Below, piece after piece: positions 23,644 through 53,143 of a DNA stretch of 60,807 bases; within the stretch, counting starts at the first letter, position 1, and each line of letters opens with the position of its first letter. The DNA is from an uncultured Bacteroidales bacterium (lineage in GTDB: Bacteria; Bacteroidota; Bacteroidia; Bacteroidales; Paludibacteraceae), in the NCBI GenBank assembly GCA_902778935.1, contig CACYZT010000011.1, forward strand, positions 1 to 60,807. Direction: 5' to 3'. The notes below the pieces were generated by a model. That model saw nothing but the letters and a program-made list of their open reading frames with translations. It ran no database searches and was not told where the DNA came from. A program made the translations under genes and the position numbers.

Positions 23644-25263
23644 ATGAAAAGATTGTTTCTATTGAGCGCGTTGAGCGCCATCACATTCACAATTTACGCT
23701 GTTAACTACTGCGCCGATTCGTCATGGGGTTATGCGGGCAATAATGTTACGGGTGGCGGGAATGCCACGCCTACGCTGGTGAGCAACGAGAGCGAATTGA
23801 AAAATGCGCTCAAGAACAGCGACAAAGTGATTATCATTACGCAGAATATCACCGTTTCCAACCATATCAGTACGGACAAGAGCAACCTGACCATCATGGC
23901 GCTGCCGGGCAAGAAACTGATTTCCAACCAGCAAGTCAAAGAAACTTCAGGTATTCTCTATTTGAAAGGAAGCAACCTCATCCTTCGTAACTTGACGTTC
24001 GAAGGTCCCGGTGCGTATGACTGCGACGGCTGGGACAATCTCTGTCTGGACGGTGCGAAAAACGTGTGGGTGGACCATTGTGATTTTCAGGATGGTTGTG
24101 ACGGCAATTTTGATATCAAGGCCAAATCCGATAATATCAGCGTCACCTGGTGCCGTTTTCGCTATCTCAAAGTTCCTAAAGCGGGCGGTTCAGGCGGTTC
24201 GAACGACCACCGTTTCTCTAATCTCATCGGTTCCGGCAGTTCGGATAAACCGGCGGATGGCACCTATAACATCACGTACGCTTTCTGCTGGTGGGACGAG
24301 GGCTGCAAACAACGAATGACACGTTGCCGTAACTGCGAACTGCATTTCTTGAATTGCTATTGGAACAGCTCCGTAGCGGACTACTACGTCGGTCCGGAGA
24401 ACGCGAAATGCTATTTCGAAGGTTGCACCTTTGCCGGCAAAGCGAACAGTCCTTCGAAGATCTGGAGCGATTCGTATAGCACCAGCAGCCCCAGTTACTG
24501 CACATTCGTTAACTGCACGGGCAATCTGCCGTCGAACACTTCCACACCGGTTGTTGCTCCGACGTATAACTACGATGCGCTCACACCTGCCACGGCAAAG
24601 AACTATGTCACCAACTCCTCCTGCGGCACAGGTGCTACGCTGACGGTAAGCAGTTCTGCAGAAGTATCTTCCTCCTGCGACGGCGATGACCCTCAACCGC
24701 CGACGCACGACACGATTCCCGTTAGCGGAGATTGCTGTGTGAACCTCGGTTTAGGCGAAGCTCCGACTGCCGCGAACAGCGGCATACCGGCTGATTTTGC
24801 CCTACTGAACGTAACTGCGTACATGAGCAAGAGTTCATGGGACCAAGGTTATCTCAATTTAGGCGGTAACGCAGACTATGTGACGTTCGATTTCTCGGCG
24901 TACGAGACGAAGATAGACACGGTGACATTCGATGTAACCATCCCTAACTGGGAGGCAACGAAGAATACTATCGCGTACCATTGGAACGACAACCCGAATA
25001 CAACTTATCCAATCGCGAGTGCAGCCACAGAAACGGTTCAGTTAGTGGCACCCGAGAACGCTATCTCGTTCACTATCCAGCGCTCCGCCGGCACAAGCAC
25101 CCGCATCGCACAGGTATGCTTCGTGCTCAGCGACACAGAACCGATGGATATCGGCCATACGCAGATACCGGCTCTTAATTGCCGCAAAATCATGCACAAC
25201 GGGCGCGTGCTCATCGTGCGCGATAATAAGGTGTACAATCTATTGGGAATCCAAGAAGAATAA
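23644..25263 (+). CDS. Secreted pectate lyase (PL1) with C-terminal sorting-like tail
   Basis: A 539-residue secreted enzyme. Residues 1-19 are a signal peptide (signal peptidase I type, no lipobox). Residues about 20-330 form a PL1 parallel beta-helix: NVWVDHCDFQDGCDG (metal-binding Asp region), SVTWCRFRYL, and QRMTRCRNCELHFLNCYWN carrying the likely catalytic Arg. PL1 cleaves polygalacturonate by beta-elimination. After a Ser/Asp/Pro linker near 345 comes a beta domain of about 135 residues, then the tail (about residues 505-539: KIMHNGRVLIVRDNKVYNLLG). The gene is monocistronic and convergent with the nuclease gene 8 bp away. Not part of the beta-glucan locus. Confidence 0.93.
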   Translation: MKRLFLLSALSAITFTIYAVNYCADSSWGYAGNNVTGGGNATPTLVSNESELKNALKNSDKVIIITQNITVSNHISTDKSNLTIMALPGKKLISNQQVKETSGILYLKGSNLILRNLTFEGPGAYDCDGWDNLCLDGAKNVWVDHCDFQDGCDGNFDIKAKSDNISVTWCRFRYLKVPKAGGSGGSNDHRFSNLIGSGSSDKPADGTYNITYAFCWWDEGCKQRMTRCRNCELHFLNCYWNSSVADYYVGPENAKCYFEGCTFAGKANSPSKIWSDSYSTSSPSYCTFVNCTGNLPSNTSTPVVAPTYNYDALTPATAKNYVTNSSCGTGATLTVSSSAEVSSSCDGDDPQPPTHDTIPVSGDCCVNLGLGEAPTAANSGIPADFALLNVTAYMSKSSWDQGYLNLGGNADYVTFDFSAYETKIDTVTFDVTIPNWEATKNTIAYHWNDNPNTTYPIASAATETVQLVAPENAISFTIQRSAGTSTRIAQVCFVLSDTEPMDIGHTQIPALNCRKIMHNGRVLIVRDNKVYNLLGIQEE

Positions 25264-25271
25264 GACGCTCA

Positions 25272-26297
25272 TCAGCGAACGGGCTGACCTGTTAGCGTAT
25301 ATTCCACTCCGCCTCGGATGATAATCAGTTGTCCGTCGCGGAGTATTTTGGTGGCATTGACGTCGGCGTTGGCATTGGAGATACCTTGCTCCTCTTCACC
25401 CAAGCGCAAACCAACCATGACTGCATCGTGGTCCGAATAGCGGTTACCGTACGAAGCAGAGGTATTAGTGTGCCAAACGGCTGCACCGGTTATCTGCGTA
25501 GCCATTGTGCTGTTCGCGAAAGCGTGGTCAATCAGTTCGTGGGTACGGGAATAGATATAGGAATAGGCGTCCTCATCATAGTAAAGAAGTTGCTCGGTAT
25601 AGTTATTCTCGAGCAGAACGGTCATGCACTCCTCGTCCATCTGCGCATTGAGGTCACCCATAATCAGGATATCCGGGTCTTGCACTTTGTAGGACGAACT
25701 CAGACCATTAATCAGCCACGTAGCATTGTCCACACGCTTCGCTTGAGATTCCTCATCGCTCTTCGCCTTAAAATGGTTCATAGAGAGTGTGAAATGTTCT
25801 CCGGTCGCTAACTCCGTCCATGCCTGAATACGCATGGTATTCCTGTAATAGGTTACGTTGGTTGCGGGATAATTGGAGCCATAGGGTTCCACGGTCGCCG
25901 TGCGATAGACGAATCCCGAGCGAATAGCATTGTCGTGGCTGTCGGTCTCTACATAGATACCATCGTCCACATAGGCGAAGTCCTCTCCGCCGACCTTCGT
26001 ATTGAGCGCGTCCACCAGATATTCAAGGATAATCGGCTTGGCTTCCACTTCGCAGAAAGCAAAGATATCTGCGCCGGAAGCAACCATCATATCCACTATC
26101 TTTCGCGTTTTCTCTGCCCGTCCCGCATCGGTATTGTAGTCCGGACGGGAAGACTCTTCGTAATAGTAATAGTAGTTCTGAAGATTATTGGCAAGCACGA
26201 CCAGCCTCGGATTACCGAGGTCAGGTCGGTTCGGTAAGGCGGCCTGCACGAGAAGTGCAGCCGCCATACCAAGCCAAACGAAGAGAAGTCTTCTCAT
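25272..26297 (-). CDS. Secreted endonuclease/exonuclease/phosphatase-family protein with sorting-like tail
   Basis: A 341-residue protein. Signal peptide at the N-terminus (LFVWLGMAAALLVQA), then an EEP fold: RLVVLANNLQNYY, FAFCEVEAKPI (Glu), LSMNHFKAKSD (N-x-F-K), DPDILIMGDLNAQMDEECM (Asp-x-Asn) and RYSDHDAVMVGL (S-D-H). These are the metal and catalytic residues of extracellular DNases and related phosphoesterases. It ends with the shared tail (KILRDGQLIIIRGGVEYTL). The GTG-led open frame reaches 26372, but the ATG at 26297 gives a clean signal peptide and overlaps the sdhB stop (TAATG), coupling translation to sdhB. Confidence 0.88.
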   Translation of the reverse strand: MRRLLFVWLGMAAALLVQAALPNRPDLGNPRLVVLANNLQNYYYYYEESSRPDYNTDAGRAEKTRKIVDMMVASGADIFAFCEVEAKPIILEYLVDALNTKVGGEDFAYVDDGIYVETDSHDNAIRSGFVYRTATVEPYGSNYPATNVTYYRNTMRIQAWTELATGEHFTLSMNHFKAKSDEESQAKRVDNATWLINGLSSSYKVQDPDILIMGDLNAQMDEECMTVLLENNYTEQLLYYDEDAYSYIYSRTHELIDHAFANSTMATQITGAAVWHTNTSASYGNRYSDHDAVMVGLRLGEEEQGISNANADVNATKILRDGQLIIIRGGVEYTLTGQPVR

Positions 26298-27052
26298 TAG
26301 TCTTTGAATTTCGCAGCGAGGAACTCGCGGTTGAGACGAGCGATGTTCGCAAGCGAAACCGATTTCGGGCACTCAGCGGCGCAAGCACCGGTGTTAGTAC
26401 AGTTACCGAAACCGAGTTCGTCCATCTTAGCCACCATCGCTTTTGCGCGAGCCGCAGCCTCAATCTTACCTTGCGGGAGCAGAGCGAGCTGCGAAACCTT
26501 AGCTGCCACGAAGAGCATCGCCGAACCGTTCTTACAAGCCGCTGCACAAGCGCCGCAACCGATACAAGACGCAGCGTCCATCGCTTCGTCTGCTACGGGC
26601 TTCGGAATAGGAATGGCGTTTGCGTCAGGTACACCACCGGTGTTGACCGAAACGAATCCGCCGGCCTGCATAATCTTGTCGTACGCGCCGCGATCGACCA
26701 TGAGGTCTTTGATTACAGGGAACGCACGGCTACGCCACGGTTCTACAGTGATGGTCTCGCCATCTTTGAACTTACGCATGTGAAGCTGGCAAGTGGTGAT
26801 AGCGCTGTCAGGTCCGTGCGGGTGACCGTTGACGTACATCGAGCACATTCCGCAGATACCCTCACGGCAGTCGTGATCGTAGGTAACGGGATCTTTGTGC
26901 TCCGCAACGAGTTGCTCGTTGAGAATATCAATCATCTCCAGGAACGAAGCGCCTTGGAATACATGTTTGAGCTCATAGGTCTCAAAATGACCTTGTGCTT
27001 TGGGTCCTGCTTGTCTCCAAACACGAACCTTAATATCTATATACTGATCCAT
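26297..27052 (-). CDS. sdhB: Succinate dehydrogenase/fumarate reductase iron-sulfur subunit
   Basis: A 251-residue subunit. The N-terminal 2Fe-2S ferredoxin domain has [15 protein letters not shown] with the last Cys in TCQLHM. The C-terminal domain has [17 protein letters not shown] and [15 protein letters not shown] for the 4Fe-4S and 3Fe-4S clusters. Transfers electrons between the flavin of SdhA and the quinone site in SdhC. Starts 2 bp after sdhA; its stop overlaps the nuclease start. Confidence 0.97.
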
Positions 27053-27054
27053 GA

Positions 27055-29247
27055 TTAGTTTTTGTAGTTACGTGTTTTACGTTCCGTGAATTCGTAGTCA
27101 AGCGGCTCTTTGATGAGTTCGGGCTCGGAGTCCTCGCCTGTGTATTTCCAGCAGCCTACGTATGAGAATTTGTCGTCCTGACGGAGTGCCTCACCTTCCG
27201 GCGTCTGGTATTCCTCGCGGAAGTGACCACCACAAGATTCCTCACGATGGAGAGCATCGACAGCCATCAGACGACCGATCTCGATGAAGTCAGCCAGACG
27301 GAGGGCTTTCTCGAGCTCGTTATTGAGGCTATTAGCCTCACCCGGGATATAGACATTGGTCCAGAACTCTTTCTTGATAGCATCGATTTTCTTGATACCT
27401 TCCTTGAGTCCCTCAGCCGTACGGCCCATACCAACGAAGTCCCACATAACGAGACCAAGCTCTTTATGGATGGAGTCAACCGAACGCTTTCCTTGGATAG
27501 CCATGAGTTTATTGATCTTGTCCTGCACAGCCTTCTCAGCCTCTGCGAACTCAGGCAGGTCAGTACTCATACGCGGTACGCCGATCTGGTCGCTGAGGTA
27601 GTTCTGAATGGTATAAGGCAGTACGAAATAGCCGTCCGCGAGACCTTGCATCAGAGCCGAAGCACCAAGACGGTTAGCTCCGTGGTCGGAGAAGTTTGCC
27701 TCACCGATACAGAACAGACCTTTGACACTGGTCTGCAGCTCGTAGTCCACCCATATACCACCCATCGTATAGTGGATAGCCGGGAAAATCATCATCGGGT
27801 TCTCGTACGGGTTCTCATCGACGATTTTCTCGTACATCTGGAAGAGATTACCATATTTCTGCGCTACCACATCCTTGCCCAGACGCTGGATAGCCTCACT
27901 GAAATCGAGGAACACAGCCAAACCGGTGTTGTTCACGCCGTAGCCCTTGTCGCAACGCTCTTTGGCAGCACGCGAAGCCACGTCACGCGGAACGAGGTTA
28001 CCGAACGCCGGATAGCGACGCTCGAGATAGTAATCGCGGTCCTCTTCAGGGATGTCACGTCCTTTGATCTCACCGGCTTGGAGACGCTTGGCGTCCTCCA
28101 GTTTCTTCGGCACCCATATACGTCCGTCATTACGCAGCGACTCGGACATCAGCGTCAGCTTGGACTGGAAGTCACCGTGCTTCGGGATACAGGTCGGGTG
28201 AATCTGTGCGTAGCAGGGGTTAGCGAAATAAGCTCCATGGCGGTACATCTGCATAGCAGCCGAACCGTTGGAAGCCATGGCGTTGGTGGAAAGGAAGAAA
28301 GTGTTTCCGTAACCGCCGGAACCTACCACTACTGCATGAGCGAAGAAACGCTCGATGCGGCCGGTAACGAGGTTACGGGCGATGATACCACGCGCACGCT
28401 TCTCGCCGTTCTCATCAGCGATGAGCACGATATCCAGCATCTCATAGCGGGTGTACATCTTCACTTTGCCTTTACCGATTTGGCGGCTCAGAGCACTATA
28501 TGCGCCGAGCAGCAACTGCTGGCCGGTCTGACCTTTTGCGTAGAACGTACGGCTTACCTGTGCGCCACCGAAAGAACGGTTGTCCAGCAGACCGCCGTAC
28601 TCACGTGCGAAAGGAACACCCTGTGCTACGCACTGGTCGATAATATTGTTCGATACCTCTGCCAGACGATATACGTTCGCCTCACGAGCGCGGTAGTCAC
28701 CACCTTTGATAGTATCGTAGAACAGACGATAAACGGAGTCACCGTCGTTCTGGTAGTTCTTTGCAGCATTGATACCACCCTGTGCAGCAATCGAGTGCGC
28801 ACGGCGCGGGCTGTCCTGGATACAGAAGTTAAGCACGTTGAATCCCATCTCTGCCAACGAAGCAGCAGCACTGGCACCGGCAAGACCGGTACCGATGACG
28901 ATGACGTCCAGACGACGTTTGTTAGCGGGGTTAACGAGTTTCTGATGGTTCTTGTAGTTGGTCCATTTGAGCTCCAGCGGTCCTGCCGGAATCTTTGCGT
29001 CCGCAGGAGTGATGATTTTGGTCTCTTTCTTGGCAGCAGGTTTAGCCTCAGCCTTGGGTGCCTCAGCCTTGGGAGCTATCAACTCTTCCGCCGCAGCCAC
29101 AGCCGCTTTGCCGGTTTTCTTGGCAGCCGCAGCCACAGCCTCCACAGCCTCTTTGACCTCTTCGCGCTCCGCTACTTGCTCTACTTTCTCTTTAATCACT
29201 TCGGCTGCTTTCTTAGCAGCATTCAGTATATCTTCTTTCTTTGCCAT
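27055..29247 (-). CDS. sdhA: Succinate dehydrogenase/fumarate reductase flavoprotein subunit with an N-terminal extension
   Basis: About 730 residues. From about residue 85 on it is a standard Bacteroidota SdhA/Frd[19 protein letters not shown] (FAD binding), [20 protein letters not shown] (FAD-linking His), [13 protein letters not shown] and the C-terminal RHS-less capping region. Residues 1-85 are an Ala/Lys/Glu-rich, probably helical extension ([19 protein letters not shown], later [17 protein letters not shown]) absent from the roughly 650-residue Bacteroides protein I know. Start chosen at MAKKED (29247); an ATG three codons earlier (29256) is equally possible. In anaerobic Bacteroidales the complex works mainly as a fumarate reductase. 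Confidence 0.95.
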
Positions 29248-29281
29248 AATCTTCAAATTTTTGAATGTTCAAATCTTCAAA

Positions 29282-29971
29282 TTAAAGCATAGCGATTCCC
29301 ATGCCTAAATAGTAAAGAGCAACAACAGTGAACGGCAGCACTACGAGAGTCGCAACGACGGTACTGATTACCTCCACGCGTTTCTGCCATTTGAGATTGT
29401 TGAGTCCCATAGAGGTCATCGCCGAACCCACACCGTGATTGAGGTGGAGCCAGAGGACAACGAACCAGAGCAGATAGAGCACGCAGTACACTTGACCCCA
29501 AATCGGTTCGGTGAACAGCGCCTTGACGTAAGCGGCACCGTTCTGCGGGTCGAAAACGCCGGTCTCGATACCGGTCAACTCAGCAAACTGCATCTTGTAC
29601 CAGAGATTGTAAAGGTGCAAGCAAATGAAACCAAGGATGACAAAGCCCAGCACGAGCATGTTCTCCGACTCCCAGGTCACGCCTTTTTTCTTGTCAGTCA
29701 CCGCATAGCGGTCGTTACCGCGAGCCGCACGGTTCATAACCGTCAGATACAGGCCGTAGCAGAAATGTACCAACACCAGGAACGCAATTCCGAGCGAACC
29801 GATGACGGCATACCAGTTTGCGCCGAGGAAACGGCAGATGGCATTGTAAGCCTCTTCGCTGAATACCAGCGCAAGGTTCATGCAACCGTGGAACAGCAGG
29901 AAAAATACCAACGCAGCTCCACTAAGGGCCATAACGAACTTACGGCCGATGGATGAATCTTTTAACCACAT
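29282..29971 (-). CDS. sdhC: Succinate dehydrogenase/fumarate reductase cytochrome b subunit
   Basis: A 229-residue di-heme cytochrome b type subunit with five membrane helices. Helices contain His residues expected to bind heme (FHGCMNLALVF, HFCYGLYLTV, HLYNLWYKMQF, LWLHLNHGVGSAM). It anchors SdhAB and exchanges electrons with menaquinone. First gene of sdhCAB; promoter at 30034-30065. The 34-bp gap to sdhA consists of CTTCAAAT-like words. Confidence 0.95.
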   Translation of the reverse strand: MWLKDSSIGRKFVMALSGAALVFFLLFHGCMNLALVFSEEAYNAICRFLGANWYAVIGSLGIAFLVLVHFCYGLYLTVMNRAARGNDRYAVTDKKKGVTWESENMLVLGFVILGFICLHLYNLWYKMQFAELTGIETGVFDPQNGAAYVKALFTEPIWGQVYCVLYLLWFVVLWLHLNHGVGSAMTSMGLNNLKWQKRVEVISTVVATLVVLPFTVVALYYLGMGIAML

Positions 29972-30033
29972 AGAGATTGTTTGTTTTTAATGAATATTTA
30001 GTTAATTTTTTGTATACTCACTCTTTGCGGCTG

Positions 30034-30065
30034 CAAAGTTACAACTTTTTTCGCACATATGCAAG
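30034..30065 (-). promoter_or_regulatory. Promoter of sdhCAB
   Basis: Minus strand: CTTG (30065-30062), 20 bp, TAACTTTG (30041-30034). Back-to-back with the porQ promoter. Confidence 0.75.
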
Positions 30066-30070
30066 AAAAA

Positions 30071-30102
30071 TTTGCATAATTAAAAAAAAAGCAGTATCTT
30101 TG
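30071..30102 (+). promoter_or_regulatory. Promoter of porQ
   Basis: TTTG (30071-30074), 20 bp with an A9 tract, TATCTTTG (30095-30102). The ATG at 30117 follows 14 bp later, so the leader is very short. Confidence 0.8.
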
Positions 30103-30116
30103 CACCCGATTTTAAA

Positions 30117-31220
30117 ATGCGGAAGTGTGGACTTGTCATATTAGCATGCCTGTTGATAGGGGCGAATAGCGTCTTGGGACAGGTGTCGAACGCAGGGCGG
30201 TCGGTATTCTCATTCATGGGATTGCCGGCGTCATCGAAGCTCAATGCCCTCGGCGGTTCGAACGTCAGCCTCAGCGATGGAGACATCTCCATGGCTATGT
30301 GCAATCCTGCGTTGCTGCATGCTACGTCCCACATGACGCTCCAACTCAACTATTCCTATTATCTGCCCGGCACGATGTTCGGCTCTGCGCTCTACGGGCA
30401 TAACTTCGGACGCTCGAAGATAGAGAAACCCTATTCGGGCGACGGAGAACCCGACAAGCCCAATTACTTCGCCGTCGGAATTCACTATCTCGATTACGGC
30501 ACGATGAAGTATGCAGACGAGTACGGCAACCAGACGGGCGGTTCGTTCGGCGCACGCGATATCCTTATAGATGTGATGTACGCGCGTCAGCTCCATCCGT
30601 GCTGGAAAGTGGGCGTGACGCTCAAGCCGGTCTATAGCATCTACGAGAGCTATACATCTTTCGCCATCGGAGCCGATGTAGGCGCCCATTTCCAGACGAA
30701 GGACTCCACCTTCCAAATGGGCCTGGTTCTGCAGAATATCGGTTGGCAAATCAAGAGTTTCTATTCCCACGAAGACGGTACGGGGCACGAGATATTGCCG
30801 CTCAACCTGCAGCTCGGTCTGACCTACCGCGTCAAGCACGCTCCGCTGCGATTCCATCTGCAGATACACAATATGCAGACCTGGTATCTGAACTACGAAT
30901 GGACAAGTCTGGACAAGAGTCCGACGACCGGCGATATCGTTCCGCACAACATACCGTGGTACGATATGCTGTTCCGCCATACGATTTGGTCCATCGAAGT
31001 GGTGCCCAAGAGCGAACGATTCTATATCGCGCTCAGTTACAACCACCGTCGTCGTGCGGAGTTGCAGCTCCTTGACCAGCGTTCGCTGGCAGGTTTTGCG
31101 TTAGGTGCCGGCGTGCGTATCAAACAGGTACGCATAGGTTTTGCCATCAGCCAGATGACCAAGTCCAATTTCTCCTACCAGGCGGGCGTTACACTCGATA
31201 TCAATTCGATGATGAAGTAA
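30117..31220 (+). CDS. porQ: Type IX secretion system protein PorQ
   Basis: A 367-residue outer-membrane beta-barrel protein with signal peptide (LIGANSVLGQ). The mature start is VSNAGRSVFSFMGLPASSKL, then ALGGSNVSLSDGD and alternating aromatic strands typical of PorQ/PorV-like FadL-fold barrels. PorQ belongs to the T9SS attachment/release module on the outer membrane. It overlaps the next gene by one base (TAATG), so it is translationally coupled to cmk-ispH. Confidence 0.85.
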   Translation: MRKCGLVILACLLIGANSVLGQVSNAGRSVFSFMGLPASSKLNALGGSNVSLSDGDISMAMCNPALLHATSHMTLQLNYSYYLPGTMFGSALYGHNFGRSKIEKPYSGDGEPDKPNYFAVGIHYLDYGTMKYADEYGNQTGGSFGARDILIDVMYARQLHPCWKVGVTLKPVYSIYESYTSFAIGADVGAHFQTKDSTFQMGLVLQNIGWQIKSFYSHEDGTGHEILPLNLQLGLTYRVKHAPLRFHLQIHNMQTWYLNYEWTSLDKSPTTGDIVPHNIPWYDMLFRHTIWSIEVVPKSERFYIALSYNHRRRAELQLLDQRSLAGFALGAGVRIKQVRIGFAISQMTKSNFSYQAGVTLDINSMMK

Positions 31221-32782: not shown

Positions 32783-32788
32783 TAATTC

Positions 32789-42865: not shown

Positions 42866-43729
42866 ATGAAAAAATTATTCTTTTTAACTGCGCTTTTATG
42901 CGCAAGTATGATGAGTTGGGGCATTGACTGGAATGCTTATGATTATTTAGGCGACGGCGCCGGTGAAGGAGCATACAGCAATAAATACAAGGTAGCCGCA
43001 GCTTTCGGACAGACGGTAGTGAATATCCAGCCGAGTTTGAATGGCGGGATTGCCTCGATCTATACGTATTTCTCGGCAGCCGTTACAGATTGTTCGTTGG
43101 CAACCGACCAATTTGCGCTGAACGGAGCCGGTATATATCTCTATCTGAGTGCTTTTAGCGCCAAAGAGACAGCCGTAACCGTAACAGCAGGAGGTTTAGA
43201 TTATGCTTTCACGGTCTTTTATGCAGACGGTACAGGTGAAGTGACTCCCGGCGGTGACGACGATGATGAGCATGGTCAAGGCGATTTGACACCGGCTACG
43301 TATTATGGTCAGAGCATTAAGCCGGTTAACGGAACAGATGTCGTTTTTGACTGGAGTATCACGCGTAATGCCGACTCTACGCTGACTTTTGCTATCAGTT
43401 GGGACAAGGAGATACAGGGTGTCGTTCCGCAAGTGAATATCAACGAGGTTTATACGACTATGCCGTGTGTAGGCCGCGAGGCACATTTCACGACGAGTGC
43501 CACATATACGGACGGCGAAGAACTGACTATTTTCTTCCTTGTGGCTTATACCGGCAATGCAGCGCGAATAGACCTGACGTACACGGTTGGCTCGTCGAAT
43601 GAAAAGCCGGAAGGCATAGAAAACACCGTTGTTAAAGGCACACACACGCGCAAAGTGATTGAAAACGGAACGCTGTATTTTATCAAAGATGGGGTGCGAT
43701 TTAATGTTCTCGGCACGGAGGTTCGTTAA
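42866..43729 (+). CDS. Secreted protein with sorting-like tail, paralogue of the next gene
   Basis: A 287-residue protein, family not recognised. Signal peptide (FFLTALLCASMMSWG), then a beta domain beginning DWNAYDYLGDGAGEGAYSNK (about residues 20-125), an Asp/Glu-rich linker near 130-145, a second beta domain, and the shared tail (KVIENGTLYFIKDGVRFNVLG). The first 130 residues are closely similar to those of the next gene, and the first 48 bp of the two genes are nearly identical, so they are recent duplicates. Position ahead of susC suggests a secreted glucan-binding or accessory role; that is inference. Confidence 0.75.
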   Translation: MKKLFFLTALLCASMMSWGIDWNAYDYLGDGAGEGAYSNKYKVAAAFGQTVVNIQPSLNGGIASIYTYFSAAVTDCSLATDQFALNGAGIYLYLSAFSAKETAVTVTAGGLDYAFTVFYADGTGEVTPGGDDDDEHGQGDLTPATYYGQSIKPVNGTDVVFDWSITRNADSTLTFAISWDKEIQGVVPQVNINEVYTTMPCVGREAHFTTSATYTDGEELTIFFLVAYTGNAARIDLTYTVGSSNEKPEGIENTVVKGTHTRKVIENGTLYFIKDGVRFNVLGTEVR

Positions 43730-43781: not shown

Positions 43782-43825
43782 TATCTTAAAACAAACATAT
43801 TTACTAACAAAAAAATCAAATTATT

Positions 43826-44887
43826 ATGAAAAAATTATTCTTTTTAACAGCGCTTTTATGCGCAAGTGTGATGGCTTTTGCTGCTATTGATTGGAACAAC
43901 TATGAGTGGCTTGGTGATGGCGCCGGTGGTGGTGCTTACAGCAACAAGTACAAAATTGCTCTGGCGTCAGGACAAGCAGTTGTTAACATTCAAAAGCCCG
44001 GTTTCGCTGATGAAGCAGGCATCTACACAACTTTCCCAGCTGGTATCATCAGTTGTACTCTTGCTGATGGTCAGTATGCAGTCCAAGGCGCAGGTGCCGT
44101 ACTTTATCTAAGCGCATTTACGAAACAAGAAACTGAAGTAACAGTTGTGCATGGCACGGGTACATGCGTATTCACTGTATATTATGTAGATGGCGAAGCA
44201 TCATCATCCGGGAAAGCAGACCCTGAATTGAGTTTGAATAAGACCGCTGATACATTGAGTGCTGAATCTCCAGCAGAAACTTTCCAAATTATACCAACTA
44301 AAAAAGGCAATGGTGCTATCTCATACTCGTCAAACAACTCGGGCATAGCTTCTGTTTCCGAAACAGGTTTAGTAACTGCAGTTGGCCGCGGTATAGCGAG
44401 AATCACAGTAAGCCTGGCTGAAACAGATGACTATGCAGACGCAGTAGCAACGCTAGTAGTAACGGTTACCGGTCCGATTAACTGGGATGCTATCAGTTGG
44501 TTGTCTGGCAGCAATGACAAATACAAATTAGTAATTGATCCAGATATCGACAATAAATTTGGAGGAAAGAAAATCGAAGGCGAAAATTTATGGGTAGGTT
44601 TCCCTTCTGCAGTATTTGGCGAATGCTCAATTGAATATTCCGCACTTGGTGCAGGCGTAAGTTTTGCTCTGAGCAACTTCCCTCAAAAGACTAAGAATCA
44701 ATTTACTATGGTCTGCGAAGGTATTACATATACGTTTTATGTATATAATGATAATGGCACAGACTCAGCTACTGCCATTGAGAATGTTGAGGTGGGTGCA
44801 AAGGCTATTAAGATTTTTGAGAATGGTCAGTTGATTATTATCAAGAATGGAGTTCGTTACAGCGCTTTGGGTAACGAAATCAAGTAA
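43826..44887 (+). CDS. Secreted protein with Ig-like domain, internal duplication and sorting-like tail
   Basis: A 353-residue paralogue of the preceding gene. Signal peptide, first beta domain (DWNNYEWLGDGAGGGAYSNK to about residue 125), a bacterial Ig-like (BIG2-type) domain (residues about 140-215; NSGIASVSETGLVTAVGRG), a divergent second copy of the first domain (INWDAISWLSGSNDKYKLV, about 217-315), then the tail (KIFENGQLIIIKNGVRYSALG). Repeated small beta domains plus BIG2 suit carbohydrate binding at the cell surface. No catalytic motif seen. Confidence 0.75.
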   Translation: MKKLFFLTALLCASVMAFAAIDWNNYEWLGDGAGGGAYSNKYKIALASGQAVVNIQKPGFADEAGIYTTFPAGIISCTLADGQYAVQGAGAVLYLSAFTKQETEVTVVHGTGTCVFTVYYVDGEASSSGKADPELSLNKTADTLSAESPAETFQIIPTKKGNGAISYSSNNSGIASVSETGLVTAVGRGIARITVSLAETDDYADAVATLVVTVTGPINWDAISWLSGSNDKYKLVIDPDIDNKFGGKKIEGENLWVGFPSAVFGECSIEYSALGAGVSFALSNFPQKTKNQFTMVCEGITYTFYVYNDNGTDSATAIENVEVGAKAIKIFENGQLIIIKNGVRYSALGNEIK

Positions 44888-44893
44888 TCAAAG

Positions 44894-44919: not shown

Positions 44920-44951
44920 TTGCCAATATACACAAACAATCCTAATTTATC

Positions 44952-47900
44952 ATGAAACAGAGAATCTTTACAATCGCTATGCTGTCATGGATGACACTTG
45001 CTGCATTTGCGCAGACACTGACCGTGACGGGTGTAGTGATGGCTCAGGACGAGCCGGATCCTGTGATTGGCGCGAATGTGATGGTGAAGGGCACGACGAA
45101 CGGTACGATAACCGATTTCGACGGAAACTTCTCCATTCAAGCCAATGCAGGCGATGTACTGCAAGTGAGCTTCATGGGTTACAAGCCTTTTGAAGTGAAA
45201 ATTCAGAACGCAGGTCCGATTCGCGTGACGCTCGTGCCGGACAATGTGCAGTTGCAGGAAGTGGTGGCCATCGGTTATGGTACGATGAAGAAAAGCGACC
45301 TGACAGGTGCTGTTACTTCTGTTAAGTCAGAAGATCTGCTCAAAGCGCCGGTATCGGGTCTGGACCAAGCGCTTCAAGGCCGTGCAGCGGGTGTGACAGT
45401 GACGAGTGAGTCAGGTCAGCCCGGAGAGGGAGCCGTCATCCGTATCCGTGGTATTGGTTCGGCTCTTGCCGGTAACGACCCGCTCTATGTTGTCGATGGA
45501 GTTATTGTGAGCGATATCAAGTGGCTCTCGCCCAACGACATCAAATCGATGGAGATTCTGAAGGACGCTTCGGCAACCGCCATCTATGGTAGCCGTGGTG
45601 CGAATGGTGTGATTCTTATTACGACCAAGTCCGGCGGCGAAGGCAAAGTGAACATCAGTTTTGATGCCTATTGGGGTTTCCAGAACCGTTGGAAGAAGCT
45701 GGATGTGATGGGTTCGCGTGACCATGCAGAGACGGAACTTCGCATCGGAGCTATGCGTGATGGTGCTTCTCAGATTTCCGATTATTACAAATACGGCTTT
45801 TCGCAATGGTTGCAGGATTACAAGCTGGGTACATCTAAGTTCTACCCCACCAATTTCGATTACGCTAACCAAGAGACCGACTGGCAGGACGAGGTATTCA
45901 ACCGCAATGCATTCATGCATAACTACAATCTCGCTTTTGATGGCGGTAGTGACAAAGGTCACTATGCGATGTCGGCATCTTATTTCGGTCAGAACGGTAC
46001 GATTATCGGTAGTAACTACCGCCGTTTCACACTGCGTCTGAACTCGGACTTCCAGATTCGCAAATGGTTGAAGGTGGGCGAACATTTCTCGTTGATGGCG
46101 AGCACAGGTCGCAATGCGATGAACAACAGTTCCTCTGCAGGAGCTTCCGTTATCTCTGCCGCCCTGGCTATGTCTCCATGGGATCCGGTTTATTATCCCA
46201 AAGGCTCTGTAAATGCGGATGGCGAGGACATCGGCGGTCACTATTCGGCAGGTTCGAACTTCAAGAATGTGACGAACCCGTATCAAATGGTTTATAACGG
46301 CGAGCCGAATAAGAAGACGGAGCGTTTTGTGGGTGACTTGTATTTTGAAATAACGCCGATAGAAGGCCTGACTATCCGTCCGTCTATCTCCGCCAACTAC
46401 CAACTCGTCCGTGAGCGCAACTACACAGCGCCGAACACATACACGAGTTATAACTACTCGGAGAAGAACTTCATCTCCTCCAATATGGAGCGTCAGTTGT
46501 CGCTGCTGGAGGAGACCACTATCACTTATGCCCGCCAAATCGGTAGACATAACTTCAGCGTGATGGCCGGTCAGACATGGGAAGAATGGAATCAATACGG
46601 TATCGGCGGTTCAGGTGCTACTATCCTCAACCCGATTCCGAGCAACTGGTATCTAAACAACGCCACAACAGATAGAAATCCTGCCGGCGATTGGGTAGCG
46701 CGTGTACGCCGTCTATCGTTCCTCGGCCGTGTATTCTATAACTACGACAGCCGTTATATGATAACCGCTAACTTCCGTGCAGATGCTTCGTCTAAGTTCT
46801 CCAAGAACCCTTGGGGATTCTTCCCGTCGGTAGCATTGGCTTGGCGTTTGAGCGAAGAGCATTTCCTCAAGGACAAAGACCTGACATGGTTGGACAATAT
46901 CAAGATTCGTGCCGGTTGGGGTCAGGTAGGTAACGAGGCCGTTCCTTCGGGTTCGTTCGTAGCTACGATGAATCATGGTAATGACCTGAACACCGGTTAT
47001 CCGTTGGGTAATAACAACAGCGAGGCTACTTCCGGTGCCGCTGTGCTGAGTCAGGTGAACGAGTCCGGCAAATGGGAGACCAACGAACAATGGGACGCAG
47101 GTATCGACTTCGGCTTCTGGAACGGGATGTTGAGCGGTTCGGTTGACTTCTACTGCCGTGACACGAAGGATGCACTTCTCTATGTTGTTGCTCCGGCACA
47201 TGTCGGCAACCGTGTGAAGATGATCAGCAATGTGGGTAACATCCGCAATATGGGTGTGGAAGTAACGCTGAACCACGAGAATAAAGTAGGAGCTGTTCAT
47301 TATAATATCGGCGGTAATTTCAGTTATCTGCACAATGAGCTGACTGCGCTGAACGGCGGTTCGCGTCTGCCGGCAGACGGCTATGTGATGACCGACTACA
47401 AGCTGCCGCTTCGCGCTTTCTGGGGCTATACCTATGAGGGCGTGTATAGTTCCGATGAGGAAGCGTTGGCGCACCTGACCGCCTATGACGCAACGACGAT
47501 TCCGGTACACGCCGGTGATGCACGTTATACCGACCTCAACGGCGATGGCAAGATAGATGATAATGACCAGCACTATATCGGTAACCCGTTCCCGAAAATT
47601 TCGTACGGTATCAACCTCGGAGCAGATTTCTACGGTGTGGATGTTCAAATCTTCTTCCAGGGCGTAGCCGGTATTGATGTCTATAACGCAGCCCGAATGC
47701 GTCTGGAAGGCGACGGTTCATCCAACGCGTTGGCACCGTACATGAAAGACCAAGTATGGGTAGGCTACTCGGAAGGCGTACAGAATGCGATGTTGGCAAA
47801 AGGTATCAACTACATGGAGTTGGAAAACCGCAACGGTACGATTCCTAATCCGCTCGGTTCGGCATCCAACACAGCAGCATCTACCCGTTTCCTCGAGGAT

Positions 47901-48122
47901 GCCAGCTATCTGCGTCTGAAGAACCTGCAGATCGGTTATACGTTCCCGCTCAAGTGGACACAGAAATTCCGTTGTTCTCGTCTGCGTCTCTATGCTACGG
48001 CAACGAACTTGTTCACTATTACCAAGTACAAAGGTTATGACCCGGAAGTGGGCAACAGTATCGACTACGGAAACTATCCGCAGAGCCGTACGTTTACCTT
48101 TGGTTTGAATGCGAATTTCTAA
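44952..48122 (+). CDS. SusC-like TonB-dependent outer-membrane transporter
   Basis: A 1056-residue SusC-family protein: signal peptide ending AAFAQ, a carboxypeptidase-regulatory-like domain (GANVMVKGTTNGTITDFDGN to residue about 95), the SusC plug with VVAIGYGTMKKSDLTGAV, IRIRGIGSALAGNDPLYVVDG, and KDASATAIYGSRGANGVILI, then a 22-strand barrel ending in FTFGLNANF. It imports oligosaccharides across the outer membrane with TonB-ExbBD energy. There is no N-terminal sigma-regulator signalling domain. Paired with the SusD gene 17 bp downstream. Confidence 0.97.
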   Translation: MKQRIFTIAMLSWMTLAAFAQTLTVTGVVMAQDEPDPVIGANVMVKGTTNGTITDFDGNFSIQANAGDVLQVSFMGYKPFEVKIQNAGPIRVTLVPDNVQLQEVVAIGYGTMKKSDLTGAVTSVKSEDLLKAPVSGLDQALQGRAAGVTVTSESGQPGEGAVIRIRGIGSALAGNDPLYVVDGVIVSDIKWLSPNDIKSMEILKDASATAIYGSRGANGVILITTKSGGEGKVNISFDAYWGFQNRWKKLDVMGSRDHAETELRIGAMRDGASQISDYYKYGFSQWLQDYKLGTSKFYPTNFDYANQETDWQDEVFNRNAFMHNYNLAFDGGSDKGHYAMSASYFGQNGTIIGSNYRRFTLRLNSDFQIRKWLKVGEHFSLMASTGRNAMNNSSSAGASVISAALAMSPWDPVYYPKGSVNADGEDIGGHYSAGSNFKNVTNPYQMVYNGEPNKKTERFVGDLYFEITPIEGLTIRPSISANYQLVRERNYTAPNTYTSYNYSEKNFISSNMERQLSLLEETTITYARQIGRHNFSVMAGQTWEEWNQYGIGGSGATILNPIPSNWYLNNATTDRNPAGDWVARVRRLSFLGRVFYNYDSRYMITANFRADASSKFSKNPWGFFPSVALAWRLSEEHFLKDKDLTWLDNIKIRAGWGQVGNEAVPSGSFVATMNHGNDLNTGYPLGNNNSEATSGAAVLSQVNESGKWETNEQWDAGIDFGFWNGMLSGSVDFYCRDTKDALLYVVAPAHVGNRVKMISNVGNIRNMGVEVTLNHENKVGAVHYNIGGNFSYLHNELTALNGGSRLPADGYVMTDYKLPLRAFWGYTYEGVYSSDEEALAHLTAYDATTIPVHAGDARYTDLNGDGKIDDNDQHYIGNPFPKISYGINLGADFYGVDVQIFFQGVAGIDVYNAARMRLEGDGSSNALAPYMKDQVWVGYSEGVQNAMLAKGINYMELENRNGTIPNPLGSASNTAASTRFLEDASYLRLKNLQIGYTFPLKWTQKFRCSRLRLYATATNLFTITKYKGYDPEVGNSIDYGNYPQSRTFTFGLNANF

Positions 48123-48139
48123 AGGAAAGGGACAAAGAT

Positions 48140-49745
48140 ATGAAAACGAAACTATTTATAATCAGTATTCTCTGTTCAGCACTTTGCCTCACAGGCTGCA
48201 AAGATTACCTGACGGAGATAGAGCCGGGAACAACGCTGTTGGGCGACTATTTCACTTCCACGGCCGCGGCTCAGGAGAACTTAGTCGGTTGTTATGTGCC
48301 GCTAATGTGGGAATATAACACGACCTATTGCTCGGAATGGTTCATCGGCGATGTGGCGAGTGATGACGCCCTCAAAGGCGGCGGCAGCACTACCGATATG
48401 GCCGATGCCTATGACTTTGAAAACTGGCGTACGGAGTCGTCCAGCGCGCTACTGCACGATTTCTATATTGCGCAGTATCAAGGTATCGCGCGTTGTAACC
48501 TGTCGATCAAATACATCACCGATATGCCGGTGGGTATCGATGCCGATTTCACACAATCGATGAAAAACCGTTTGTTAGGTGAGGCATATTTTCTGCGTGC
48601 GTACTATTATTTCCGTATGGTACGCGTGTTCGCCGGAGTGCCGTTGGTGCTGAAAGTGGTTGACAACACCGAAGATTGGCACCAACCTCGCGCTTCAGTA
48701 GCTGCTATCTACGACCAGATTTTGGCCGACCTTGAGTTGGCTAACAAATACCTGTGGAAGAAGAGCGAGTATTTGCCTGCCGATGCCGGTCGTGCTACCA
48801 AAGGTGCCGCACAGGCGATGCTGATGAAAGTCAACCTATATATGGGTTCGCCGTACTGGCAGGAATATAACCCGAGCAAGACTGCTTCCCAATGCTTCAG
48901 CGATGCGAAAGCATGGGGCGACTCTATCATCGCTTCCGGCGAATATGACCTCTGTCCTAATTACGAGGATAACTTCACCATCGAAGGCGAGAACGGCATA
49001 GAGTCTGTATTCGAGATTCAATACGCAGAAGTAACATGGGGTGACTACACCTGGGACTATGACTACAAGGGCTTCGGCCGTACGGCAGGCAGTTTCACGC
49101 AGATTCTGACGCGCAGCCGCTCCAGTAAAATAGGCGGCGGATGGGGCTTCAACCACCCGACGCAGAACCTGTACGATGAGTTCGAGGCAGGCGATATTCG
49201 TCGTGAGGTAGCGATTCTCAACCCTGAGGATAGTCTCATCGAGACACCTGCGGTACAACAAACTGCTGAACAACAAATACGCCATGTATCGCGACTCGAC
49301 TTATGCGGGTGCAGGCTTCGGACAATGGGGTATCCACGCGAGCCGTGGTCCGCTGAACAACCGTCAGATCCGCTATGCGGATGTGCTGCTGATGCATGCG
49401 GAGGCATGCCTCGGTATGGGCGATGCAGGTACAGCCAAGAACGATATCGACCAAGTGCGTGCCCGCGTAGGTTTAGCGGCTATTCCGGCTGCTACCGATG
49501 CCGCTTTGCGCCACGAGCGTCGCTGCGAGTTGGCGATGGAAGGTCACCGTTGGTTCGACCTCGTTCGCTGGAAAGGCGTAGCAGGCACAGGACTTAAACA
49601 ACACATGGATGCGTACAAGGCTACCGAGACCACGGATGCCCAATCGCACATGCGTGAGTTCATCTCCGGCAAACACGAGATATTCCCTATCCCGTATGAA
49701 GAGCGTATCCTTAATCCCGACATGGATCAAAACCCCGGCTATTAA
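48140..49745 (+). pseudogene. SusD/RagB-like glycan-binding lipoprotein interrupted by a frameshift
   Basis: The lipobox (Cys20 in LCLTGC) and TPR-rich SusD fold are clear up to about residue 371 (YFLRAYYYFRMVRVF, AAQAMLMKVNLYMGSPYW, FNHPTQNLYDEFEAGD). At 49248-49254 the frame changes: the original frame runs into unrelated sequence to 49597, while the frame from 49254 continues as a normal SusD C-terminus (LLNNKYAMYRDS, NNRQIRYADVLLMHAEACLG, RRCELAMEGHRWFDLVRW, IPYEERILNPDMDQNPGY) to 49745. Either one base was gained or two lost. Rejoined length is about 534, normal for SusD. It may be a real mutation or an assembly error. Confidence 0.85.
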
Positions 49746-49808
49746 TAAATAGACAAACAAAACAACTAGGCAACTAGATATTATTAACCAACTAAAATTT
49801 AAAACATT

Positions 49809-50756
49809 ATGAAAGCAAACAAATTTTTTGCTGTAGCGCTTGCAGCGCTGGCACTGATGGCTTGTAACAAGAAAGATGAGCCGAAACAAGATCCGTTGAA
49901 ACTGGAACCGACATCACTGACTCTCAAAGTAGGTGAAACCGGACAAATCACCGCGAATGTAGGTGCTACATGGGCATCGAACAACGAGGCTGTAGCAACT
50001 GTTGCTCCGGGTAATGACGGCGGCAAGACCGCTATTGTAACGGCTGTAGCAGAAGGTAATGCTATCATCTCCGCTACCGCTAACGGCGAGACCAAGACTT
50101 GTGTTATTCTGGTAGAAAAGGCTGTAGACCCGAGCGGTGACAAGACCATTGATGCAAAACGTATCTGGCCGGTAATTCTGGATGCTGTAACGGCAGAAAA
50201 ATATGCCAGTCTGATAGCAGGTGATGTCCGTGTAAATGAAGCAGAAGGCAACAACCTTTACATCTGGGCTGCTGGCGAGACATACACCGCTGGTGATGCT
50301 ACCGGAAAGAACTTCTTTGGTAACACCGAAGGATATTTGGCACTGACCGTTGTTGCTCCTGCTGGTTGGTCCGGATTCGGTATTCACATTGAGAACGCCG
50401 CTTCTGTTGAAGCTATGCAAGCTATAAAAGACGCAGTAGCTGCTAATCCCGACAAAATGTTCTTGCATATTGCTATCAAGGCTGCAAATGCAGGCAACCA
50501 TCAGATGTACCTGTTCGCAGACAAACCCAATACTTCCTTCGCTATTGGTACAGCAACTATTGAGAATGGTGAAGTAATCGGCGACTTCCCACGCGATGGT
50601 GAGTGGCATGAGTTCGATGTGCCTCTGGCTAAGTTCGCATCTGCAATATCTGCTATTACCATGAAGGCTGACATGGATGTATTCTCGGTTCTTTCCGGCG
50701 CTACTGTAGGAGCTCAGTTGAATCTGGATGCAATCTACTTCTACGAGAAGAAGTAA
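49809..50756 (+). CDS. Surface lipoprotein with Ig-like domain, probable glycan-binding protein of the locus
   Basis: A 315-residue lipoprotein (Cys19 after LALMA). Residues about 25-110 are a BIG2-like Ig domain (LEPTSLTLKVGETGQITANV, AVATVAPGNDGG). Residues about 115-315 form a beta-rich domain of unknown family ending DAIYFYEKK. In Bacteroidota loci the gene after susD often encodes a SusE/SusF-type or other surface glycan-binding protein; this one sits there and has the export features, so I infer that role. Confidence 0.75.
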   Translation: MKANKFFAVALAALALMACNKKDEPKQDPLKLEPTSLTLKVGETGQITANVGATWASNNEAVATVAPGNDGGKTAIVTAVAEGNAIISATANGETKTCVILVEKAVDPSGDKTIDAKRIWPVILDAVTAEKYASLIAGDVRVNEAEGNNLYIWAAGETYTAGDATGKNFFGNTEGYLALTVVAPAGWSGFGIHIENAASVEAMQAIKDAVAANPDKMFLHIAIKAANAGNHQMYLFADKPNTSFAIGTATIENGEVIGDFPRDGEWHEFDVPLAKFASAISAITMKADMDVFSVLSGATVGAQLNLDAIYFYEKK

Positions 50757-50774
50757 TCGTACCATCTATTGCTT

Positions 50775-50796
50775 TGGGGGAATTGGTTTTCCCCCA
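50775..50796 (+). other. Strong stem-loop between the lipoprotein and the first GH16 gene
   Basis: TGGGGGAA (50775-50782), loop TTGGTT, TTCCCCCA (50789-50796). No T-run follows. It probably stabilises the upstream mRNA or partly attenuates transcription within the locus. Confidence 0.6.
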
Positions 50797-50820
50797 TTGC
50801 CCAAATAAATATTCACTATT

Positions 50821-52080
50821 ATGCACAAAATTTGCAAGTTGTTTGTATGTATTGCGGCCATTGTGTTGGCTGCATGTGAGAAACAAGAGGCGCCGATTGT
50901 ATTGAATCAGACGGTGCTCCAAATGAAACCCGGAGAACTCCAGACACTGGAGGTGGTGGGTTCGGTACCTAATGTGGAATGGACGAGTTCTAACCCCGAT
51001 GTGGCAACCGTGTATTATGGAGTTGTAACGGCGCAAGCTATCGGTAAGGCCATTATTACTGCGTCCACCGGAAAACAATCCGCTACATGCGAGGTATTCG
51101 TCACGGGTTCAGACGGCGCAACGCTGCGTATCACGCCTGCTTTAGTGAGTATGAAAACAGGAGAGACTTTCCAATTTAGCTATGGCAACACCTATGATTT
51201 GGAACTTACATGGTCCAGCGACAACGAGGCGGTGGCTACTATTGACCAGAATGGTTTGGTCACAGCGCACAAAGCCGGCAATGCGACCATCACATTGGCA
51301 ACAAACGTAGGTTCTGTAACAGCTATCGTCGCCGTTGAGCACACATGGGGTGCATACCATTTGGTATGGAGCGATGAGTTCGATGGTTCGGCGTTAGACG
51401 AGAGTAACTGGACACCTCAGATAGGCGGTAACGGCTGGGGTAACCAAGAAGCGCAGTATTACACCAATCGCCCGGAGAATCTGCGTGTGGAGGACGGATG
51501 TTTGGTTATCGAAGCACGGAAAGAACAATACGAGGCCAACGAATATACTTCAGCTCGAATCTATTCCAAAGGCAAACGCGAGTTCACCTACGGTAAACTA
51601 GAAGCACGTATCTCCCTTCCCTCAGGAGGAGGTCTATGGCCTGCCTTCTGGACGCTTGGCAACCGTGGCGGCTGGCCTAATTGCGGCGAGATAGATATTA
51701 TGGAGTATGTGGGTAATGTGCCGAATCGTATATTAGGCACCCTCCATACAATCAAGGACAAATCCGGCAGCAGGAGCAGTCGCGCTTACACTGGTCTGAC
51801 GAACATAGAGAACAATTTCCATGTATATGGTGTAGAATGGACCTGCGAAGAGAAAAATGGAAAAGATGTGATTCGTTTCTATGTGGATGATGTGGTGTAT
51901 TCCGAGCAAGTGGAAGAAGTGATAGATGACGATGAGTATTGGCCGTTTAATCGACCCAACTATTTCATCATCAATATGGCTGTCGGTGGTACACTGGGCG
52001 GCAGAATCGACGATGGAATATGGGCTTCTCCAAGACTGATGAAGGTGGATTGGGTACGCGTTTACCAGCGTGAAGAATAA
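50821..52080 (+). CDS. GH16 beta-glucanase lipoprotein with two Ig-like domains
   Basis: A 419-residue lipoprotein (Cys19). Two BIG2-like domains (residues about 27-95 and 100-178; each has the SSNPDVATV or SSDNEAVATI core) precede a GH16 domain (about 182-419): LVWSDEFDGSALDESNW, WGNQEAQYYT, and the catalytic GEIDIMEYVG where the two Glu act as nucleophile and acid/base. This is the laminarinase-like GH16_3 pattern cleaving beta-1,3 (or mixed-linkage) glucan. It lacks the sorting tail, as expected for a lipoprotein. Confidence 0.92.
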   Translation: MHKICKLFVCIAAIVLAACEKQEAPIVLNQTVLQMKPGELQTLEVVGSVPNVEWTSSNPDVATVYYGVVTAQAIGKAIITASTGKQSATCEVFVTGSDGATLRITPALVSMKTGETFQFSYGNTYDLELTWSSDNEAVATIDQNGLVTAHKAGNATITLATNVGSVTAIVAVEHTWGAYHLVWSDEFDGSALDESNWTPQIGGNGWGNQEAQYYTNRPENLRVEDGCLVIEARKEQYEANEYTSARIYSKGKREFTYGKLEARISLPSGGGLWPAFWTLGNRGGWPNCGEIDIMEYVGNVPNRILGTLHTIKDKSGSRSSRAYTGLTNIENNFHVYGVEWTCEEKNGKDVIRFYVDDVVYSEQVEEVIDDDEYWPFNRPNYFIINMAVGGTLGGRIDDGIWASPRLMKVDWVRVYQREE

Positions 52081-52105
52081 ATAACACGATTGAAACAATA
52101 TTATC

Positions 52106-53143
52106 ATGAAACAGTTACTTACATTATTATCTGCAGTGTGCCTTTACGGACTGATGCAGGCGCAGGTATACACCCTTGTCTGGAACGAAGATTTCACGGA
52201 TGGCAGTCTGGACCGCACGGTTTGGAATATAGAGGTGAACGGCGACGGCGGCGGAAACAACGAGTTGCAGTATTACTGCGAGAAAGGTGTGACTGTTGGT
52301 ATCGAGCCGACGACCGGCAAGCACTGTCTTATTTTAACCGCAACTAAAGAAGATTATCAGGGTAAGAAATGCACCTCCGGACGCGTGAACAGCAAGAACA
52401 AGATGTACTACACCTTCGGTCGCATTGACGCACGAATCAAGTTCCCGCGTACCGCTAATGGCCTCTGGCCTGCTTTCTGGCAAATGGGCAATAACTTCGA
52501 CCAGGTCGGCTGGCCTAAATGCGGCGAGACAGACATCATCGAGATGGGACATCAGAATGGCTTCAACGGCAAGCAGGATAGGTTCTTCAACGGCGCGATG
52601 CATGTTGGCAGGGCATGGAATGCCGACTGGTGCGATGCGCAAGAAGCCACTTGGTCCTATTCGCTGCAAGATACATTCCATATCGTCACGCTGATTTGGA
52701 CGCCTTCAACGATTGACATGTATATGGATAAAGACGCACACCCCGAGAACGGAGCCTATTTCCATGCAGATTTGGAACCCAATGAAGACGCGGACTACAA
52801 CCGTCAACTGGTGTTCGGCAAACCGAACTTCGTAATAGCGAACCTGGCAGTCGGAGGTAATTTCCCCGGCATATTCAATATTGATGGTATCACGGCTCTG
52901 AACAACGGACCACAGTCCCTGTATATCGACTGGATTCGTATCTACCAGCGCGGAGATGCAGGCGAGTCGTTTGTATGCCCTTCGGCGTCCGACCCCATAG
53001 AACCGGAAAGAACAGAGAACAACCTCTCCCCGACCCTCCCCTCAAGGAAGGGAGAGAAGGTGCTTCGCAACGGGCAGTTGTTGATCCGCCTTGGAGAGAA
53101 GATGTATGATATAATGGGAAAAGAGGTGACGGTTAAGTATTAA
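52106..53143 (+). CDS. Secreted GH16 beta-glucanase with sorting-like tail
   Basis: A 345-residue enzyme with a signal peptidase I signal (ends LMQAQ, no lipobox). The GH16 domain (20-285) has LVWNEDFTDGSLDRTVWN, NNELQYYCEKG, and catalytic GETDIIEMGHQN. It ends in YIDWIRIYQRG. Then comes a linker with the in-frame inverted-repeat element (NLSPTLPSRKGEK) and the shared tail (KVLRNGQLLIRLGEKMYDIMG). It is the only GH16 here without a lipobox and the only one with the tail. It probably acts free or attached outside the cell. Confidence 0.92.
   Translation: MKQLLTLLSAVCLYGLMQAQVYTLVWNEDFTDGSLDRTVWNIEVNGDGGGNNELQYYCEKGVTVGIEPTTGKHCLILTATKEDYQGKKCTSGRVNSKNKMYYTFGRIDARIKFPRTANGLWPAFWQMGNNFDQVGWPKCGETDIIEMGHQNGFNGKQDRFFNGAMHVGRAWNADWCDAQEATWSYSLQDTFHIVTLIWTPSTIDMYMDKDAHPENGAYFHADLEPNEDADYNRQLVFGKPNFVIANLAVGGNFPGIFNIDGITALNNGPQSLYIDWIRIYQRGDAGESFVCPSASDPIEPERTENNLSPTLPSRKGEKVLRNGQLLIRLGEKMYDIMGKEVTVKY
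53023..53060. repeat. Short inverted-repeat element inside the GH16 coding sequence
   Basis: CTCTCCC (53024-53030) pairs with GGGAGAG (53050-53056). The segment, pyrimidine-rich then purine-rich around CTCAAGGAA, resembles the small CCTCCCC/AAGGGAGG repeats seen across Bacteroidota genomes. Here it is read in frame as a linker. Confidence 0.6.

Follow-up and report, generated by a model that had tools for sequence, protein, structure and literature searches.

The stretch of DNA analysed here (the window; 60,807 nucleotides, contig CACYZT010000011.1, which is contig C11 of a 2.18 Mb genome) comes from an uncultured Bacteroidales bacterium of the Paludibacteraceae. Five of its genes, encoding a pectate lyase, an EEP nuclease, two paralogues situated before susC and a GH16 enzyme, finish with the same short C-terminal tail. 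The initial annotation had placed the tail at these five gene ends and had read it as a sorting tag of the type IX secretion system (T9SS). All five tails were located, and their positions are given below together with those of the cleavage-like element that precedes some of them.

25186-25260, plus strand: tail of the pectate lyase (gene 23644-25263); no cleavage motif by pattern
25275-25349, minus strand: tail of the EEP nuclease, whose gene ends at 25272
25350-25385, minus strand: the 12 residues before the EEP nuclease tail, starting with GISN; cleavage-like by eye, not by pattern
43613-43726, plus strand: module of paralogue 1 before susC (gene 42866-43729), with GIEN motif and tail; tail proper 43652-43726
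44774-44884, plus strand: module of paralogue 2 before susC (gene 43826-44887), with AIEN motif and tail; tail proper 44810-44884
53057-53140, plus strand: tail of the GH16 with a signal peptidase I (SPI) type signal (gene 52106-53143); no cleavage motif by pattern

A hidden Markov model (HMM) built from the five window tails alone was searched against the whole genome (E <= 10) and gave 69 matches, namely the 5 of the window, 60 whose sequences were fetched and 4 unfetched ones in frames of 26-47 residues. Of the fetched sequences, 59 had the match at the extreme end of the protein, with 0-6 residues left before the stop, a placement not to be expected of chance matches; the sixtieth (L092) bears a tail of a different kind. 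The carrier set comprised 64 proteins, the five of the window and 59 others of the same genome, and one more carrier (L288, 1184 residues), absent from the list of 69 matches, appeared in a later survey. Alignment A2, made from the carrier set without L071 and L072 (62 rows; L092 was likewise not included), gave the pattern K-h-h-x-[ND]-G-[QK]-L-h-I-x-[RK]-x-G-x-x-[YF]-[TNDS]-x-x-G-x-x-[VLI]. The K of column 9 and the G of column 29 were invariant (62/62 each), the Y/F of column 25 was present in 62/62, the I of column 18 in 60/62 and the G of column 14 in 58/62. The Y/F and the last G correspond to motif B of the short C-terminal domains (CTDs) of T9SS cargo in Prevotella intermedia, in which a Tyr is strongly conserved and a Gly invariant. 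In all 61 placed tails the chain stops 3-8 residues past the motif B glycine, and the GxY and KxxxK motifs of the type A CTD are missing.

Pectate lyases, glycosidases, nucleases, M6- and C10-like proteases and very large repeat proteins were found among the carriers, the family search having been run for the window proteins and the other names assigned by eye from the sequences. Their bodies are mostly unrelated, and what they have in common is a C-terminal module of about 37 residues. For the five window proteins, the claim that the bodies are unrelated holds apart from the two paralogues before susC, which are related to each other. With respect to tail variants, L065, L068, L078 and L085 (three of them very large, with frames of 1323-3141 residues) have a divergent tail in which NN or QN replaces the NG turn and which ends in YDVTGKKL or YDITGKKLND. 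In L071 (G000:C2:243036-243104) the tail occupies an open frame of 24 residues, directly preceded by a stop, and may be what is left of a disrupted carrier.

The tail is a moving module, shuffled at the DNA level onto otherwise unrelated genes. Over their last 114 bases, L050, L051 and L062 are 78-87% identical in DNA, but identity falls to 27-30% at a distance of 150-300 bases from the end; by eye, the similarity sets in roughly one codon ahead of the GIEN motif.

A readable signal peptide, almost always of the SPI type, was present in 57 of the 64 carriers. The seven without a signal by rule were cut at contig ends (four) or were fragments (three), and one of the 57 (L067), called SPI, looks like a fragment and is doubtful. 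A background survey covered 400 kb of the genome and gave 341 called open reading frames (ORFs), 122 of them signal-bearing; in this set the tail stood at the C-terminus of five ORFs, and two further matches were internal and weak (E 0.12 and 0.28). Under the same rule for both sets, a strict lipobox with its Cys at position 14 or later was found in 0/57 signal-bearing carriers vs 9/122 signal-bearing ORFs of the survey (p 0.03), and looser rules gave 1/57 vs 16/122 (p 0.01) and 3/57 vs 18/122 (p 0.05). Under loose rules, lipobox-like strings were seen in L049, L055 and L072, each followed by more hydrophobic residues. The exclusion of the tail from lipoproteins is therefore real, yet statistically modest. 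In the window itself, the C-termini of five lipoproteins were inspected and none has the tail, as had been observed before; in its polysaccharide locus, one GH16 combines an SPI-type signal with the tail, and the neighbouring GH16 (53149-54135), with a lipobox, lacks it. With regard to the same locus, the susD-like gene is apparently frameshifted (48140-49745), either in reality or through an assembly error: the ORF at 48140-49597 ends in unrelated sequence and the SusD-like C-terminus lies in another frame, at 49284-49745, ending in DQNPGY with no tail.

Upstream of the tail there is a second conserved element, which had been missed in the initial annotation. In 62 tails (63 less L068, which could not be placed), the motif [GAST]-[ILVMF]-[DEN]-[DENSQHT] was sought within the 24 residues before the invariant K and was found in 42, lying 12-15 residues before the K in 35 of these. 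Six equal stretches further upstream, taken as control, contained it in 3/61, 6/61, 12/61, 7/59, 6/58 and 4/57 cases. The second residue of the 42 motifs was I in 19, L in 9, V in 6, F in 5 and M in 3, and the two preceding residues were PT in 6 and PQ in 4. Counted from the motif, the putative signal is 35-48 residues long (median 37). In section 3.5 of PMC11969387 the PorU cleavage consensus of P. intermedia is given as PT/GI, with Ile as the most conserved residue. The upstream element resembles this consensus and is a predicted cleavage site, the likeness being good, not exact, because PT precedes only 6/42 motifs and Ile occupies the second place in only 19/42.

The T9SS genes named in the window, encoding PorP, GldKLMN and PorQ, were each recovered above the curated NCBIfam cut-off:

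14390-15337, minus strand: GldN
15350-16921, minus strand: GldM
16953-17861, minus strand: GldL
17901-19247, minus strand: GldK
19250-20263, minus strand: PorP family protein
30117-31220, plus strand: PorQ (NF033711, 298.8 bits; cut-off 220)

Outside the window, the genome encodes SprA and adjacent PorU and PorV (PorV at L287:18365-19567), and its PorU keeps a type A CTD. In the genus of the window, PorU was found in 40 of 41 genomes, the exception being 83% complete. The tail itself was restricted to the genome under study in a sample of the phylum (395 genomes, E <= 1e-4), and in a sample of the order (247 genomes) it was present in six, all SprA-positive. Within the family of the window (150 genomes) it occurred in 43, including 13/13 of the genus, where the number of copies went from 9 to at least 53 and was at least 48 in 10 of the 13; the other 30 genomes had 1-9. 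The type A CTD model matched 149 of the same 150 genomes, with 0-21 matches in the 13 of the genus (median 4) and a median of 32 in the 137 others (counts up to at least 35). Both signals are carried by G344, with 10 tails and 18 type A CTDs, and by G354, with 9 and 21. The tail largely replaces the type A CTD in the genus of the window. As regards the type A matches of the genome under study, the second PF18962 match (L002, G000:C2:125840-126007) is below the curated cut-off and its protein adjoins tail-bearing L064 (166 residues), whose body resembles the L002 end by eye.

The exchange can be followed in single protein families. Among 30 loci with relatives of a tail-bearing M6-type protease, both from the genus of the window end in the tail, whereas in other genera 25 have, by eye, a type-A-like CTD at this place; three are cut off; three further genus genomes with a match (G293, G313 and G330) were left out of this comparison. 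The pectate lyase has relatives at 43 loci, six of them cut off. The tail was found at 32 of the 37 closed ends (28 titled Bacteroidales or Paludibacteraceae and 4 Prevotella or Prevotellaceae), the weakest being L216 with 17.7 bits, and the remaining five, all titled Prevotella or Prevotellaceae, finish with a short tail of the B-D-E order described below. A tail-bearing EEP homologue flanks the pectate lyase in 13 related loci, and all 13 EEP ends are tails by eye; in the window the two genes (23644-26372) are convergent and 8 bases apart. SprA was matched in each of the six Prevotella-type genomes that contributed pectate lyase loci, in one of them over 299 of 2319 positions only. Several records of pectate lyase relatives come from the rumen or other ruminant gut sites, and the genus of the window would accordingly be one of ruminant-gut Paludibacteraceae.

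A second family was sampled around G823, the Prevotella-labelled record behind L248 (201 genomes; tail threshold E <= 1e-3). The tail was present in 39/155 SprA-positive and in 0/46 SprA-negative genomes (Fisher p 1e-5, relatedness not corrected); leaving out G823, which had been picked for having the tail, the figures were 38/154 and p 1.4e-5. The tail was thus absent from all sampled genomes of this family that lack SprA. The description of the tail as lineage-specific is correct insofar as its massive use belongs to one genus, and fails insofar as it also occurs in this second family.

Among known signals, the short CTDs of P. intermedia are the closest. According to PMC11969387, 48 of them, of 43-55 residues, are predicted in this species, the cleavage site is experimental in five, and both short and long CTDs are glycosylated. 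The tail had been described as very short, which is right, although these short T9SS CTDs were already known, having been published in 2025. As described in that paper, the elements of the short CTD follow the order cleavage-B-D-E, the cleavage motif and motif B being 6-11 residues apart, and it is modelled as a three-stranded sheet on PorV whose strands 1-3 correspond to strands 3, 6 and 7 of type A. The four-stranded sheet of the canonical CTD is reported in PMC11285876 to have the spatial order beta4-beta3-beta6-beta7.

A profile of nine B-D-E tails was prepared from L092 and a 77-residue frame in L090 (both of the genome under study), L257 and six Prevotella-labelled loci. In its native B-D-E order it matched the tail at motif B only (13 columns, score 20.8, 71%), whereas with the D/E hairpin placed before B the match extended over 24 columns (score 31.7, 95.2%, 42% identity). 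As null, 100 column shuffles gave at most 15.0 and 40 shuffles with 7 cuts at most 14.6. The reordered form scored 28.4-33.1 vs 20.0-21.2 for the native order in all nine leave-one-out runs, and 8 of the 9 single template sequences preferred it. As to the orientation of the hairpin, E-D-B is favoured on geometry, since the chain would keep the spatial order beta7-beta6-beta3 and all strand directions; sequence does not decide. In addition, of the nine Prevotella-labelled ends, taking both kinds together, seven (all but L244 and L251) have AT[AG][IV] ahead of the signal. A literature search found no paper linking circular permutation with type IX secretion, most subscription journals and all bioRxiv preprints being outside its scope.

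The existence of the module, where it stands in the proteins, how it is distributed, the genes of the machinery and the match between profiles are all direct observations; taken together with them, the tail very probably functions as a short CTD of the T9SS. The initial annotation was right in substance and the phenomenon is larger than it stated: an HMM of its five tails extended the set to 59 more proteins, and a role as T9SS sorting tag is supported by co-occurrence with SprA, PorU and PorV, by replacement of the type A CTD and by the cleavage-like motif. The conditions under which the initial annotation would have given up this role were examined, and the results did not speak against it. 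We further lean, with moderate confidence, towards a reordered T9SS signal, either a circular permutation (D-E-B) or a full reversal (E-D-B). Such a signal would have been passed on between genes as a mobile module of 38 residues, and most of the sampled genus members would now use it as the principal signal of their cargo, PorU itself keeping the type A CTD.

It must be noted that several results weigh against these readings. Twenty of the 62 tails, three of which belong to the window, have no cleavage motif by pattern, and the motifs found depart from PT/GI as indicated above. When 37 tails were compared with Pfam and NCBIfam, none matched a T9SS model (including PF18962 and TIGR04183), and the ten families matched, each by a single member, were not T9SS families; against solved structures the tail profile gave only two chance matches (E 1.4 and 1.5). 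Simple homology to the long type A CTD was rejected, given that hhalign against 15 CTDs of the family aligned 12 columns with motif B only (7.7%). Reordering the long CTD gave no gain (15.1 vs 15.2 for the native order of the same pieces), so the claim of reordering rests on the short CTDs. These are nine sequences, one of which prefers the native order, and the D-E-B and E-D-B arrangements score alike (31.2 vs 30.5). The co-occurrence with SprA in 6/6 genomes of the order sample is uninformative (p 0.70) because 233/247 genomes have SprA, 116 SprA-positive genomes of the second family lack the tail at E <= 1e-3, and the contrast with lipoproteins is modest.

The first alternative to be weighed is that the tail is a true T9SS signal of independent origin, its likeness to a reordered CTD being convergence of small beta hairpins with NG turns. 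The small number of columns (24) and templates (nine), the similar scores of the two hairpin orientations and the lack of support from the long CTD are in its favour, and we regard it as possible, though rather unlikely, because the reordered score is 31.7 and the null (40 shuffles, 7 cuts) did not go beyond 14.6, and because the preference for reordering was retained in every leave-one-out run. It is less probable still that the tail is a truncated or decaying type A or short CTD which has kept motif B and lost D and E, with a superficial likeness to the hairpin. It is true that the alignment with the long type A CTD is confined to motif B (YxxxG) and that reordering this CTD adds nothing, but this would not account for the conservation of K (62/62), G (58/62) and I (60/62) before motif B nor for the 24 columns covered by the hairpin-plus-B profile, and at least 48 matches in 10 of 13 genus genomes is not decay. 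Finally, the tail might have nothing to do with the T9SS and serve for anchoring or for binding a partner, at the surface or in the periplasm. The failure of T9SS models on 37/37 tails and a T9SS link drawn from sequence would suit this reading, which is highly improbable in view of the SprA co-occurrence, the lower number of type A CTDs in genomes rich in the tail, the M6-type swap, the cleavage-like motif and the Prevotella-labelled pectate lyase relatives, which end in either the tail (4) or a B-D-E short CTD (5).

Under the preferred reading of a reordered T9SS signal, the cargo would reach the periplasm by Sec with its SPI signal, and beyond this point we infer each step from the known system as described in PMC10994853 and PMC11969387. 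The tail would fold as a small three-stranded beta unit, its strands being the P. intermedia short-CTD elements in another order (D/E hairpin first, motif B last), and would be taken up at the SprA/PorV translocon, presumably by binding to PorV. PorU would then cut before the [GAST]-[ILVFM]-[DEN]-[DEN...] motif, and the enzyme would be released or joined to surface polysaccharide.

Whether the T9SS translocon recognises its cargo by a motif, a fold or the last strands is still debated. In this regard, a natural signal of about 37 residues with its conserved elements in another order provides a ready-made recognition test, and if the reordering is true the translocon would read a small three-strand surface and not the chain order or a beta-sandwich. 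The tail also marks dozens of secreted enzymes per genome, in several genomes, that are missed by the T9SS models of Pfam and NCBIfam, and it might serve as a compact tag for the surface display of enzymes in Bacteroidota.

With respect to known systems, the tail is like the P. intermedia short CTD in being C-terminal and short, in its Sec-exported carriers, in the cleavage-like motif upstream and in the Y..G motif B. It differs from the cleavage-B-D-E order and 43-55 residues published for the latter in having a cleavage-(D/E hairpin)-B order and 35-48 residues and in ending after motif B; it was set apart from the 48 short CTDs by the published text, and similar tails may be among them. The B-D-E tails of L092, in the genome under study, and of Prevotella-labelled L244, L246, L247, L252 and L253 differ from it in order and score 1.1-5.9 bits with the tail HMM, and resemble it in that, in Prevotella, they terminate relatives of the pectate lyase. 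With the type A CTD (PF18962, TIGR04183) the tail shares its position, the kind of cargo, a PorU in the genome and motif B; however, type A covers about 75 model positions, is described in PMC5445135 as seven-stranded with GxY and KxxxK motifs late in the domain, and is rare in this genus, and the tail has no match to its models. Type C (ChiA type) and type B CTDs are, like the tail, alternative T9SS signals, but they are reported in PMC10202324 to be about 100 residues long, and no such model was among the matches of the tails in Pfam and NCBIfam. The short CTDs of P. intermedia lower the novelty of the tail, while its proposed reordering, its shuffling as a module and its replacement of the type A CTD raise it.

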